From the NCBI RefSeq assembly GCF_040529185.1, contig NZ_CP159510.1, positions 2,976,001 to 3,040,000 of the forward strand: 64,000 nucleotides of DNA, given 5' to 3'. The stretch comes from Sporolactobacillus sp. Y61 (GTDB lineage: Bacteria; Bacillota; Bacilli; Bacillales; Sporolactobacillaceae). Below, in pieces: positions 59,053 to 64,000 of the stretch. The translations under genes and the position numbers were made by a program. Position 1 is the first letter of the stretch. The number at the start of each line of letters is the position of its first letter. The notes beneath the pieces were generated by a model. The model was not told the origin of the DNA. It saw only the letters and a list, made by a program, of their open reading frames with translations, and made no database searches.

Positions 59053-59568
59053 TTAGTTCATATGTGCCAGGACAATCTGTGCGACAAACGCCCCTAGAAA
59101 AAGGGCATAGACACTCGTGATAATCGGAACAAAACGTCTTCCTCCGAAAAAGGCGAGCCATTCAGGCAGGTGAATGTTATAAAACTTGTTATATAGCCAG
59201 CCGGCAGTGATTCCGGTAATACAGGCACAGAGGAAGAAGAAGCTGAGAGTCGAAGCTGTCGATCCCCCAATCTGAATCGGTGTGATCATGTTAAAAACGA
59301 GTTTTGACTGAATGATAGAGGTCAGAGAAGCGCAGAAAACCAGATAGCCGACACAGCCGGCAAGTGCTGAAGCACCGCTGTTATCACGGGAAATACCTGC
59401 AGCAAGGCCGACAGATAAGGTAAACGGAAGAAAGAAACCGAATGTGTCCGCCACACCTTTGAATCCCCCGAAACCGGTCAATGCAAGTAATTGGAAGAAG
59501 GCGTAAATGATAACGGCAAGTGCAGGATAGACCAAACCGGCAGCGATGCGTTTATAAATCTTCTTCAT
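59053..59568 (-). CDS. Half-length PTS EIIC-like membrane protein
   Basis: A 171-residue membrane protein matching only the N-terminal half of a glucose-superfamily EIIC: LAAGISRDNSGASALAGCVG near residue 55 and GWLYNKFYNIHLPEWLAFFG near residue 125. It then ends LFLGAFVAQIVLAHMN. The substrate-binding second half is missing. The start ATG 59568 has a good GGAGGGAA site and the frame is clean, so it is expressed or only recently truncated. It stands directly before the full IICBA, in the same direction. It may be a remnant that lost its end by deletion, or an accessory half-transporter. Confidence 0.75.
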   Translation of the reverse strand: MKKIYKRIAAGLVYPALAVIIYAFFQLLALTGFGGFKGVADTFGFFLPFTLSVGLAAGISRDNSGASALAGCVGYLVFCASLTSIIQSKLVFNMITPIQIGGSTASTLSFFFLCACITGITAGWLYNKFYNIHLPEWLAFFGGRRFVPIITSVYALFLGAFVAQIVLAHMN

Positions 59569-59877
59569 TTTTACATTCCCTCCTGATGACTATTTTTAAT
59601 AATATGAACCTCTGTCTCCTTTCCTGTAACTTTATCTGACAGCTCTGTTTGAAAAATGATAAATCAATTCTATTTTATACCAAAAAAAGAAGGCAGGACG
59701 GAAAATCAGACAATCCGTTTCATATATTGTCATTTTTATTAACAGGCGAAAGAATGCCACACAGTGATGTGAGAAGTACACTGATGTACACACAAAAAGG
59801 GCTGACCGGGGCCGGGGTAAATGCTTTTTCTGCGCACAGGCCGTGTTGGGGGGCAGGATGAGCCTGCACCATCGATT
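59569..59877 (-). other. Upstream region of the PTS operon
   Basis: A 300-base interval with no gene. A likely -10 TATAAAAT lies near 59671-59682 on the minus strand; the -35 is weak. I see no GlcT-type leader terminator. The GC-rich segment 59795-59860 has no recognised structure. Confidence 0.4.
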
Positions 59878-60432
59878 GGCTGATATATTCTGAGATTGGC
59901 TGAATTAGCCGAGATTCGGCTGATATACCCTTAAGACGGCTGAATTAGCTGAGATTCGGCTGATATACCCTTAAGACGGCTGAATTAGCTGAGATTCGGC
60001 TGATATACTCTGAAACCGGCTGAAATAACTGAGATTCGGCTGATTTATTCTGAAACCGGCTGAAAAGCCGAGATTCCCCTGATTTATTCTGAGATTGGCT
60101 GAATTAGCTGAGATTCGGCTGATATATTTTGAAACCGGCTGAAAAGCTGAGATTCGGCTGATATACTCTGAAACCGGCTGAATTAGCCGAGATTCGGCTG
60201 ATATATTCTGAAACCGGCTGAATTAGCCGAGATGCGGCTGATATATCCTGAAACCGGCTGAATTAGCCGAGATGCGGCTGATATATCCTGAAACCGGCTG
60301 AAAAGCCGAGATTCCCCTGATTTATTCTGAAACCGGCTGAATTAGCTGAGATTCGGCTGATTTATTCTGAAACCGGCTGAATTAGCTGAGATTCGGCTGA
60401 TATATTCTGAAACCGGCTGAAATAGCCGGTTC
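59878..60432. repeat. Tandem array of about 14 copies of a 40-bp two-part repeat
   Basis: The unit is GGCTGATATATTCTGAAACC followed by GGCTGAATTAGCCGAGATTC. Both 20-base halves start GGCTGA, so this hexamer recurs about every 20 bp, close to two helical turns. I count 14 units between 59878 and 60432; several are 39 bases long because of a one-base shortening in the second half. Units 2 and 3 are identical, units 10 and 11 nearly so, and two units begin CCCTGA instead. The second half can fold as CGGCT, GAATT, AGCCG. Frame stops (TGA in every half) exclude a protein repeat. It lies between the fadE terminator and the PTS promoter region. Confidence 0.95.
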
Positions 60433-60440
60433 GCTGCCAC

Positions 60441-60481
60441 AGGGAAAACGCACATTCCATTTCAGAATGTGCGTTTTCCCT
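60441..60481 (-). terminator. Stem-loop terminator after fadE
   Basis: AGGGAAAACGCACATTC and its exact complement (17-bp arms) enclose a 7-base loop, 18 bases after the fadE stop. The T-tract lies within the arm (GTTTTCCC), so it may act more as a 3' stabiliser than a strong terminator. Confidence 0.7.
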
Positions 60482-60499
60482 GAACTACAGTGGCGCCTG

Positions 60500-62278
60500 T
60501 CAGGTGAGATACTTTCCTGCTTCTGCGACGCGTTGACCAATCTGCATTTTCAGTTTTAATGAGTCAATCGGCAGCTGCACAGCCACCTCGTCCAGAGTGA
60601 TCAGCCGCCCGGTCAGCGTTTCCCCTTTTTCGAGATAGGCCAGTACTTTTTTAGCCAGAGATGTGACTTTTTCAAAACATTCATGAACATACACCTTCAT
60701 CATGTCGCCTGTAAGCACATCCGGCCGTCTGTCTTCTTTTCCCTGTATTTGCATGGACCGGATCAGGACCGATTCCATCGTATAGACAGCGATCATCATG
60801 TCACTAAAGTATTTTATCAGCAACTGTTCCTGCTGCAGTTGCTGGTCGAACTTACGGGTTGCAAGTCCGAGGACATACAGCAAGATCTTTTTCGAGGCGG
60901 CAACGAGATATTCCTCTGTGCCGGATGCTCCGGGCGCCGGTTTTTTCCGGATGAGTGCTTCGATATCGGATTCGAGTGTGCCCAGCATGCGAAGCAGCGG
61001 TAATTCTCCTTTTGCGGCCTTTTTCAGAAGTGTGCTGCTGATGACCAGCCGGTTGATTTCGTTTGTCCCTTCAAAAATCCGGTTGATGCGGGAATCACGA
61101 TAGATTCGTTCAATTTTATATTCGGAAATGAAACCATAGCCGCCATGGATCTGAACCCCTTCGTCAGCTACAAAATCCAGGGTTTCCGAACCCAAAACCT
61201 TGTTGATTGAACATTCGATAGCGTATTCAGCAATGCCGCTTGCAGACCGTTTCCCCGAGTCCGGACTATTGTAGTCAAGCGTTGCGAGGGATTGATCGAT
61301 TAGCCCGGCTGTGCGATAAATTACACTTTCCAGCGCATAGGTCCGAATGTTCATGTCTGCCAGTTTTTCCCGGATCAGAGGAAAACTGGCGATCGGTCTG
61401 CCGAACTGTTCCCGTTCATTTGCGAACTTTGTGGAGAGCACGATGGCTTCTTTTGCTGAGCCAAGCGCGAGCGTGGCGAGCTTGAAGCGGCCGATATTCA
61501 AAATGTTAAATGCAATCACATGCCCCCGTCCGGCCTCACCAAGCAGATTCCCGGCAGGTACTCGGACATCTTCGAGGATGACCGGACGAGTCGACGAACC
61601 CTTGATACCCATTTTCTTTTCTTCAGGTCCGAGACTGACCCCGTCCCAGTTCCGTTCAACAATAAACGCTGAAAAACCCTTCCCGTCAATTCTGGCATAA
61701 ACAATGAAGATATCGGCGAATCCGGCATTCGTGATAAATTGCTTTTCTCCGTTCAGCACGTAGTATTTTCCATCATCCGACAGTCGCGCGGTCGTCTTCG
61801 CGCTGAGTGCGTCCGACCCGGACGAGGGTTCAGTCAGGCAGTAGGCAGCGATTTTCGTGCCTGCCGCAAGTTCAGGCAGATATTTTTTCTTCTGATCCGG
61901 ACTGCCGAAAAACACAATGGGCAGCGTGCCGATCCCGGTATGGACCGATGCCGACAGGGCAAAAGATGAAGCTTTTGCCAGTGATTCATTAATCAGGGTC
62001 GCACTGACTTTATCCAGGCCAAGCCCTCCGAACGCTTCCGGCACATCGGCGCTGAGCAGTCCGAGTGATCCGGCCTCTTTCAGTAAACGAAGCGTCAGTT
62101 CATAGTCCAGTCCCTCAATTTTCTGATCGTGCGGCACAACCGATTTTTCAATAAACTGCCGTGTGGTCTCTGCCATCATCATCTGTTCTTCCGTGAAGCC
62201 TTCCGGTGTCACAGCACCGCCGGGTGATTCGGTAAACAAAAAGGCCGCACCAAAAGCTCCCTTTCTTTTTAGAGTCAT
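60500..62278 (-). CDS. fadE: Acyl-CoA dehydrogenase, FadE type
   Basis: A 592-residue flavoenzyme, long-form like B. subtilis FadE. The N-terminal helical part is followed by AYCLTEPSSGSDALSAKTTA (flavin loop) and the second signature GYGFISEYKIERIYRDSRIN with the conserved RD pair. The catalytic Glu is probably in FEGTNEINRLV. A C-terminal helical extension of about 170 residues is typical of this branch. It catalyses the first step of fatty-acid beta-oxidation. I start at ATG 62278 (MTLKRKGAFG), with AGGGAAGAGG upstream; the longer frame to 62431 overlaps fadF. Confidence 0.93.
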   Translation of the reverse strand: MTLKRKGAFGAAFLFTESPGGAVTPEGFTEEQMMMAETTRQFIEKSVVPHDQKIEGLDYELTLRLLKEAGSLGLLSADVPEAFGGLGLDKVSATLINESLAKASSFALSASVHTGIGTLPIVFFGSPDQKKKYLPELAAGTKIAAYCLTEPSSGSDALSAKTTARLSDDGKYYVLNGEKQFITNAGFADIFIVYARIDGKGFSAFIVERNWDGVSLGPEEKKMGIKGSSTRPVILEDVRVPAGNLLGEAGRGHVIAFNILNIGRFKLATLALGSAKEAIVLSTKFANEREQFGRPIASFPLIREKLADMNIRTYALESVIYRTAGLIDQSLATLDYNSPDSGKRSASGIAEYAIECSINKVLGSETLDFVADEGVQIHGGYGFISEYKIERIYRDSRINRIFEGTNEINRLVISSTLLKKAAKGELPLLRMLGTLESDIEALIRKKPAPGASGTEEYLVAASKKILLYVLGLATRKFDQQLQQEQLLIKYFSDMMIAVYTMESVLIRSMQIQGKEDRRPDVLTGDMMKVYVHECFEKVTSLAKKVLAYLEKGETLTGRLITLDEVAVQLPIDSLKLKMQIGQRVAEAGKYLT

Positions 62279-62357
62279 GTTCCTCTTCCCTTCTGAAATG
62301 GTCTTAAACCGTGCTGCATGTCTGCCGGGCAGCAGGGCTTCTGCGGGTCTTCCGATA

Positions 62358-64000
62358 TCAGGCCTGCTCTGCTCCAAATACCGATTCTGCAAGAAGTTCT
62401 GCCACATCCCGGGTCCGGACTTGCTGATCAACGCCCTTTAACCTGGTCCCGTCGTCCATCATCGTCAGACAGTAGGGGCAGGCGCTGCTGATGGTGTCCG
62501 GCCTGACTTCAAGCGCCTGCTCTGTTCGTGCCAGATTGATGCGTTTGCCGGCTGTCTCCTCCATCCACATCATGCCGCCCCCGGCTCCGCAGCACATCCC
62601 GTTTTCACGGGACCGTTTCATTTCTGCCAGCTCAACGCCCGGAATCGCTTTCAAAATAGCCCGCGGCTGATCATACACGCCGTTGTATCGGCCCAGATAA
62701 CAGGAATCGTGGTAGGTGATTCGTTCATTGACCGGATGTTCTGGTTTCAGGCGGCCGTCCCGGATCAGCTGATCCAGCAGCTGGGTATGATGCAGCACCT
62801 CGGCCTGCAGCCCGAATTCCGGATACTCATTTTTAAATGTATTAAACGTATGCGGACAGGCTGTAACGATTTTTTTCACGTTGTATTTTTCAAAGACTGC
62901 GATATTTTCCTGACACAACTGCTGAAATAAAAACTCATTACCCAGACGGCGCGCGGTATCACCGGAACTTTTCTCCTCATTGCCGAGCACGGCGAAGTTG
63001 ACACCGGCAGCCTGGAGCAGGCGGATAAAGGCGCGTGTGATCCGGATACTGCGGTTGTCGTAGGAGCCCATGCTGCCGACAAAAAAGAGATAGTCGAAAT
63101 CAGGATGCTCTTTCACCGTGGGGACTTCCATGCCGTCGATCCAGTTTGCCCGGTCATTGCGGCTCATGCCCCACGGATTGCCCTGGCGCTCAATGTTCTG
63201 CATGGCCCTCTGTCCCTCCTGAGGTACTTTTCCTTCAGTCAGAACCAGATAGCGGCGCAGATCAATAATTTTATCCACATGCTCATTTGCGACCGGACAT
63301 TGATCTTCACAATTACGGCAGGTGGTACAGGCCCAGATTTCCTCCTCGGTAATCACATCGCCGATCAGCTGCAGATCTTCAGCCGACCGGTCCGACGTCT
63401 TTCCCCACGAGAAGTGCTGCCAGTGGAGAGTGGGACGGATATCTGTGACCGGCCCGGCCGTCCCGGTTGCCTCGCCGGATAGCGGCTGGTCCGCGTCTTC
63501 CCGGGCTGCCGCTTCCTGAGACAGCGGGTTTCCCGGCCAGGTGCCCGGGTAATGGCGCTCCATCTGAACCGCATGCACCGTTTTCTTTGTCAGATCGACG
63601 GGGATCCAGGGCGACTTTGACGTGACCGCCGAGCCTTTTTCCGTTAAATGATCACGCATTTTCGTGATCAGGTGCATCGGCGAGAGAAACTTGCCGGTCG
63701 CCGCGGCCGGACACATATTGGTACAGCGCCCGCACTCCACACAGGCATACAGATCAAGGAGCTGCTTTCGCTCAAAATCCTCAATTCGACCTGCCCCAAA
63801 CGACTCTGCCTCTTCGTTTTCAAAATCAATCGAACGCAGCCTGCCGTCAGGATCGGTGCGGTGCAGAAAGATATTGAGCGGAGCGGTAATCAGATGAAAG
63901 TGCTTGGACTGCGGAACATACAGGGCAAAAGCGAGCAAAATCAATAGATGCATCCACCAGGCGATGTAATAAAATGCTGTTGCCGCCTCCTGTGACAGGC
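62358..64000 (-). CDS. fadF: FeS oxidoreductase FadF/HdrD-like with membrane N-terminus (5' end outside window)
   Basis: The frame is open to the right window edge; the first in-frame ATG (63951-63953) is internal because a hydrophobic membrane stretch continues upstream of it. Two [4Fe-4S] motifs, CVECGRCTNMCP and CTTCRNCEDQCPV, precede two CCG-type Cys-rich domains (SCYLGRYNG and MCCGAGGG). B. subtilis FadF has the same layout, with an N-terminal membrane domain, and is thought to pass electrons from acyl-CoA dehydrogenase and ETF to quinone. fadE follows 79 bases later in the same direction, a natural pair. Confidence 0.9.
   Translation of the reverse strand, partial: LSQEAATAFYYIAWWMHLLILLAFALYVPQSKHFHLITAPLNIFLHRTDPDGRLRSIDFENEEAESFGAGRIEDFERKQLLDLYACVECGRCTNMCPAAATGKFLSPMHLITKMRDHLTEKGSAVTSKSPWIPVDLTKKTVHAVQMERHYPGTWPGNPLSQEAAAREDADQPLSGEATGTAGPVTDIRPTLHWQHFSWGKTSDRSAEDLQLIGDVITEEEIWACTTCRNCEDQCPVANEHVDKIIDLRRYLVLTEGKVPQEGQRAMQNIERQGNPWGMSRNDRANWIDGMEVPTVKEHPDFDYLFFVGSMGSYDNRSIRITRAFIRLLQAAGVNFAVLGNEEKSSGDTARRLGNEFLFQQLCQENIAVFEKYNVKKIVTACPHTFNTFKNEYPEFGLQAEVLHHTQLLDQLIRDGRLKPEHPVNERITYHDSCYLGRYNGVYDQPRAILKAIPGVELAEMKRSRENGMCCGAGGGMMWMEETAGKRINLARTEQALEVRPDTISSACPYCLTMMDDGTRLKGVDQQVRTRDVAELLAESVFGAEQA

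Follow-up and report, generated by a model that had tools for sequence, protein, structure and literature searches.

Introduction

Several kinds of repeated DNA lie between bacterial genes. REP and BIME elements are dispersed, intergenic, variable in number and found preferentially at gene ends, the REPs themselves being palindromes. The iterons of plasmids and phages are direct repeats of near 20-22 bp that are bound side by side by one protein. Prokaryotic satellites are tandem repeats of 10-200 nt present in at least four copies (Subirana and Messeguer 2019; PMC6749651). As presented in the parts of that survey used here, some of them are species-specific and scattered within one genome, and the dispersal of non-coding satellites is called rare in bacteria. 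TAACTGA direct repeats have been described in Beggiatoaceae, Cyanobacteria and Bacteroidetes, and in the sections of that paper drawn on here their reader is given as not known (PMC4679880).

Here we compare with these systems a tandem array from the chromosome of Sporolactobacillus sp. Y61 (genome G000). The window that we analysed is a stretch of 64,000 nucleotides of this chromosome (NZ_CP159510.1). Judging from sequence comparison, we give an even chance to the array being one of a dispersed, species-tuned family of putative multivalent binding platforms.

Results

The array in the window

An earlier note on this DNA had pointed to a 40-bp tandem repeat with GGCTGA every 20 bp. The repeat is real: Tandem Repeats Finder returned 555 bp with a period of 40, 14.0 copies and 88% matches, and 26 exact GGCTGA cores follow one another in steps of 20 bp with an occasional 19 bp (Table 1). 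Each of the two units with a CCCCTGA core spans 39 bp. AGCC or AGCT shortly 3' of the core gives small hairpins at 13 places. Higher-order repeats are present as well.

The array fits the description of a prokaryotic satellite, since it has four or more tandem repeats of regular length in the range of 10-200 nt. Its steps of 19-20 bp also lie within the ~17-22 bp of iteron-type direct repeats. It does not consist of contiguous heptamers of the TAACTGA type, and near-identical repeats with unique spacers were not found in it. Only a core of 6-7 bp and an A/T stretch are kept, and spacers recur inside the array, which agrees with the earlier view that it is not CRISPR. The same note had held that the array cannot code. 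On the plus strand this agrees with 19-21 stops per frame; the strict form fails, because one minus-strand frame is open over 83 codons, and so the absence of coding is likely rather than strict.

The array sits between tandem genes, both on the minus strand, and the acyl-CoA dehydrogenase has its best named relative in Sporolactobacillus sp. THM7-4 (70% identity). As regards linked cas genes, the nearest genes checked (three to one side of the array, two to the other) were PTS, dehydrogenase and iron-sulfur genes or were left unscanned. The strong hairpin beside the array has no T run after it and was missed by the terminator rule that we used.

Table 1. Coordinates of the features in the window and of other repeats found in Bacilli
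Feature	Position	Strand	Remarks
PTS EIIC-like gene	59053..59568	-	start ~305 bp from array
Tandem array	59874..60428	+	14 units of ~40 bp, paired 20-bp half units starting (Y)GGCTGA
Variant core CCCCTGA, first of two	60076..60082	+	
Variant core CCCCTGA, second of two	60314..60320	+	
Strong hairpin, ~18 bp	60440..60482	.	beside array at acyl-CoA dehydrogenase gene end; from sequence and fold
Acyl-CoA dehydrogenase gene	60500..62431	-	end ~70 bp from array; start codon uncertain
51-53-bp array	L085:10005-10733		
51-53-bp array	L229:1611-1871		
51-53-bp array	L268:13579-13839		
51-53-bp array	L081:9355-9564		
51-53-bp arrays	L234:9453-10540		second L234 array in open frame of 181 codons
51-53-bp array	L232:11206-11476		in open frame of 514 codons
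Repeat of period 67	L058:13437-13708		resembles a CRISPR array by repeat sequence

Outside the array, GGCTGA occurs 65 times in the window against 74.9 expected (s.d. 8.9), and an enrichment of single cores was thus rejected. This count bears on the idea that a methyltransferase, restriction or similar defence system recognises the core as its word, with the arrays as concentrated targets or decoys. A short asymmetric core that differs between related species recalls such words. However, single cores are neither enriched nor depleted, and methylation needs no two-turn spacing; we regard this explanation as most improbable.

Arrays with a common core on the chromosome

The chromosome of G000 carries at least 13 intergenic arrays (the window array, L128-L138 and L343) with a common core, (Y)GGCTGA followed by an A/T stretch, and with spacers and flanks that are unlike. 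The genome yielded 16 matches in a DNA search, the window array included. A triple-core pattern hit it 164 times, compared with 6 times for the reversed control; a sequence-model search added one further array. Chains comprise 8 to 53 units; L129 is split into pieces of 8 and 6 units. Single steps range from 16 to 23 bp, and the mean step across the 13 arrays is 19.5-21.0 bp. Different routes lead to this mean: 18+21+21+21+21 in L137, 20+21 in L136 and 20+21+21+21+19 in L132. The core agrees between the arrays, and the A/T stretch 3' of it agrees more loosely.

The neighbouring genes are ordinary and unrelated to one another, and a common neighbouring gene was therefore rejected. Likewise, no shared flanks were found among the 13 arrays, apart from two parts of one array, so that a common mobile element was rejected as well and the common terminal or flanking sequence of a MITE is missing from them. 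A Pfam search of the surroundings of 11 of these arrays and of the window's own found no replication initiator gene, some small ORFs being without a family. The arrays scanned thus lack the adjacent initiator of an iteron.

Core and spacer between two strains

A second genome of the same species, G220, comes from an independent assembly, a draft of about 70 contigs. It carries arrays at eight of the G000 loci, and unit numbers differ at all eight (exact cores in G000/G220: 26/23, 24/23, 15/12, 13/26, 10/6, 26/15, 51/42 and 21/12). Nine locus pairs were tried. Seven have both flanks 86-100% identical and one was compared on one side only (98%); the ninth, L138/L209, was dropped as not orthologous, its flanks being only 51% identical. 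The G220 arrays L208 and L211 lie near contig ends. At the site of the window array, flanks 86% and 99% identical enclose the 23 exact cores of G220. Since an independent assembly of the same species holds the array between matching flanks, the array is not the assembly artefact that the earlier note had reckoned with.

In the matched segments only 4 of 1079 core bases differ between the strains, against 308 of 2313 spacer bases; the A/T part differs at 37 of 713 bases and the pyrimidine before the core at 21 of 179. The comparison excludes segments whose mismatch exceeded 35%, and it assigns core classes by the exact cores in G000. Since one strain alone supplied the definition of the cores, the core rate is perhaps understated about two-fold; the contrast between core and spacer persists even so. 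Of the functions that the earlier note had proposed, an expanding satellite is borne out by the changed unit numbers at all eight loci and by the higher-order repeats. A protein-binding array gains indirect support, the core being far more constrained than the spacer and the core version being tied to the genome.

Neutral slippage alone, acting on a chance repeat that nothing reads, would account for higher-order repeats and for changes in unit number. It does not fit a core and a spacer that change unequally, nor one core version at unlinked loci without shared flanks, and we consider it improbable.

Core versions across the genus

A search of the relatives for the repeat showed that 14 of the 15 genus genomes contain at least one triplet of a related core at 19-23-bp spacing. 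The cores (GGCTGA, GCTGGTAAA, GRYCGAT, CTGATAAA and GTTGATAAA) mostly differ from genome to genome and align by eye as variants of about GRYYGRTAAA. Besides the 164 GGCTGA triplets of G000, there are 138 in G220 (control 3), 7 in G008 and none in the 12 other genomes. GCTGGTAAA triplets number 52 in G009 and 0 in the other 14 genomes, and all 19 array clusters fetched from G009 have exact 21-bp steps. ATCGRYC, the other strand of GRYCGAT, forms triplets in 10 of the 15 genomes, with controls of 0 throughout: 50 in G010, 19 in G007, 18 in G012, 13 in G003, 8 in G013, 6 in G011, 5 in G009, 2 in G005 and 1 each in G002 and G004. None occur in G000, G220, G001, G006 and G008. The CTGATAAA pattern gave 5 triplets in each of G004 and G006, and GTTGATAAA gave 1 in each. 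G002 has only one triplet and G005 only two, and in G001 no triplet of any version tested was found.

The exclusivity of the core is not absolute, since G009 holds two kinds and G004 and G006 several. This incompleteness in the three genomes counts against the binding platforms. The patterns GCTGGTAAA, CTGATAAA, GTTGATAAA and ATCGRYC were picked after inspection of loci. A sequence-model search found matches in 10 of the 15 genomes; those in G001, G002, G007 and G010 are marginal, 1-2 in each, and the genus counts given here therefore rest on the pattern searches.

We compared one site, behind the atp operon, in 13 of the 15 genomes (all except G005 and G006), judging by eye ~420 bases after the last ORF. 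Long GGCTGA arrays occupy it in G000 (51 exact cores) and in G220 (42; placed from the strain comparison and gene position). G009 has a short array of its own GGCTGGTAAA core there, in the same orientation as in G000. At this site G008 shows two GGCTGA units; G010 carries a small number of units with its ATCGGTC-type core on the other strand. In the stretch viewed, no array was found in G001, G002, G003, G004, G007, G011, G012 and G013. That the same site has the GGCTGA core in G000 and GGCTGGTAAA in G009 argues for binding platforms tuned to the species. The distribution suggests that arrays at this favoured place grew from small seeds, each with the core of its own genome. The opposite orientation in G010 points to a separate origin; together with the eight genomes without an array there, it indicates that no single array is indispensable. 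L131 (G000) and L346 (G009) have a flanking gene in common, with 83.5% identity over 170 residues, and may represent a second array site common to the two genomes.

Arrays beyond the genus

G231, a genome from another family of the same order, gave 101 triplets of the core CGCTCGGGT (control 0). Its 16 fetched loci hold 19 array clusters, in which almost every step is 21 bp or a multiple of 21 bp (exceptions 10, 51, 59 and 64), a spacing of which they are no test because the pattern used fixes it. Seven G231 arrays, aligned in a register that the period defines, replicate the contrast between core and spacer independently: neighbouring units differ at 18 of 1035 positions in the core and at 243 of 1035 in the spacer. 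Arrays of ~20-22 bp with other cores were found in Sporolactobacillus THM7-4 (L010), two Fictibacillus (L063, L078), Rossellomorea (L068) and the genome of L263, and in G017, G028, G038, G049 and G141, where the patterns likewise fix the spacing and provide no test of it. Of the 299 genomes from the order, 4 contain triplets of GAGCAAAA.

We also scanned 135 Bacilli stretches (2.11 Mb) for any period from 8 to 70 bp; the sample is not random, 80 stretches having been chosen by their acyl-CoA dehydrogenase gene and 55 taken from contig starts. The scan returned five arrays near 21 bp. Open frames of 107-151 codons contain three of the five, as a 21-bp period by itself permits. Three short-period repeats lie in long open frames, seven rows near 52 bp were found in six stretches, and one repeat of 67 bp resembles a CRISPR array. 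The shuffled control returned no array of any period.

A second class of tandem array in Bacilli repeats every 51-53 bp, roughly five turns of the helix, with palindromic arms in some units (Table 1).

Spacing, folding and genomic position

The earlier note had called the array helically phased. This holds between neighbours, whose mean phase error is 0-51 degrees per step at 10.5 bp; it does not hold for the whole window array, which is incoherent at 10.5 bp per turn (R 0.07; best period 9.93 bp). Coherence at 10.5 bp over whole arrays was rejected for the long G000 arrays, and the short arrays L129, L130 and L138 reach R 0.72-1.0. A/T alternation at 10.5 bp looked promising in raw spectra, but was not significant, with a combined p of 0.087 against a block-permutation null in 10 families, an eleventh having been dropped for too few units. 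The incoherence of the long arrays and this p value speak against binding platforms. In their favour, the two-turn spacing places neighbouring cores on nearly one helix face, which suits side-by-side binding of one protein.

The fold of the window array's core strand is better than that of shuffled sequence (z -11.4 over 651 nt with 20 shuffles; z -5.5 over 300 nt). Of 12 G000 arrays, the window's and five others fold clearly better than shuffled sequence, at z -2.3 to -5.5; another four give no folding signal at all (z -0.7 to 0.3). Thus the small hairpins described in the earlier note exist in the window array but not in all arrays, and a hairpin as a feature common to all was rejected. The six well-folding arrays leave room for an RNA or hairpin role, in which the arrays would be transcribed and the repeated word would bind an RNA-binding protein or a small RNA. 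However, the orientation of the core relative to neighbouring genes is mixed, four of the 12 arrays lack the signal, and no Rfam family exceeds its threshold (tsr1 22.1 bits, threshold 235; ceN108 20.4, threshold 50). We hold an RNA function to be quite improbable.

A simple ORF caller gave genes on both sides for 34 of 35 arrays, of which 17 are flanked by convergent, 13 by tandem and 4 by divergent genes, L343 and the G231 locus L284 being left out. The background is 65 convergent gaps of 362 (gaps of at least 150 bp in 55 stretches). A terminator is adjacent to 7 of 12 arrays in G000, 12 of 15 in G231 and 4 of 8 others, figures that are descriptive only, having no background count. Such a position at gene ends would suit an architectural or boundary role.

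Shared flanks of ~100-250 bp enclose six arrays of G009 and at least eight G231 loci, which indicates that some spread occurred by a carrier element, but not in G000.

At L274-L276 and L280-L284 of G231, a MITE-like element with imperfect inverted ends, seen by eye, contains a 21-bp array. In G009, the identical-unit arrays of L346, L351, L353 and L361 end abruptly at sequences common to contig pairs, as if an insertion sequence had jumped in. In L351, the end of an adjacent hairpin is copied into the units as well.

The main rival explanation is a selfish satellite of no use to the cell, in which a candidate nickase, transposase or recombinase would recognise the core and drive amplification and spread. 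The core would then be kept because only units bearing it get copied. Unit numbers that vary between strains are consistent with this, as are the shared flanks in G009 and in G231, with their MITE-like, imperfectly inverted ends, and the freshly amplified identical units in G009; the G000 arrays, without shared flanks, speak against it. The bias toward convergent genes does not decide the matter, because either harm avoidance or function could give it. We judge a selfish satellite unlikely, though it deserves serious weight.

Discussion

A common core at unlinked loci without shared surroundings, a spacer that changes and core versions that differ between sister species are best explained by a reader acting in trans. 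We propose that a putative sequence-specific DNA-binding protein reads the core. It would occupy nearly the same helix face at neighbouring sites and so cover or bend the stretch, and the arrays, often at convergent gene ends, would shape the chromosome or mark a boundary on it; the role may be to absorb supercoils, to delimit transcription or replication, or to position the chromosome. Units would amplify by unequal exchange. The specificity of the reader may drift between species and the arrays follow, because slippage and unequal exchange would respread the better-bound units.

More tentatively, and with confidence well short of even, we suggest that satellite arrays dispersed in the genomes of Bacilli co-evolve with a conserved putative DNA-binding protein, the arrays having a core of the species' own, two turns apart, at many gene ends. 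The cores GGCTGATAAA, GACCGATAAA, GTCGAGCAAAA (Sporolactobacillus THM7-4) and CCCGAGCGAAA (G231, other strand) would all derive from a single ancestral word, their alignment across genera having been made by eye only.

Compared with the known systems, the arrays resemble REP and BIME elements in dispersal, intergenic place, variable number and position at gene ends. A REP is a palindrome, whereas the cores of these arrays have a direction, and some of the arrays lack hairpins. Iterons are alike in repeat length, but the arrays stand at many chromosomal loci with ordinary neighbours. A likeness to MITEs, in the repeated flanks, is confined to part of the G231 and G009 arrays and does not extend to the window array or its 12 relatives. 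With TAACTGA repeats, as that paper describes them in the sections used here, the arrays share a fixed intergenic word in the same direction at many loci (PMC4679880). Those repeats, however, are contiguous 7-bp units without spacers, whereas the cores here are 19-20 bp apart; they also lie mostly just upstream of start codons, with one word in distant lineages, unlike the arrays here. In the parts of the satellite survey drawn on, there is no class in Bacilli with a fixed core and variable spacer of 20-21 bp such as we find (PMC6749651).

The earlier note had considered that identical arrays in many genomes might already be described. Related arrays do occur in 14 of the 15 genomes, but open-licence PMC papers gave no description of fixed-core, variable-spacer arrays of 20-21 bp with species-specific cores. 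Fixed-core arrays are a variety of bacterial satellites not described in the open-licence PMC literature searched. A satellite class at gene ends, with a core kept within a species and varying between species, would indicate an undescribed chromosome-associated factor in Bacilli. It would also make a simple model, in bacteria, for the joint evolution of satellite DNA and its reader. A co-evolving array and reader would be a bacterial counterpart of fast-evolving satellite-reader pairs such as those of eukaryotic centromere repeats.
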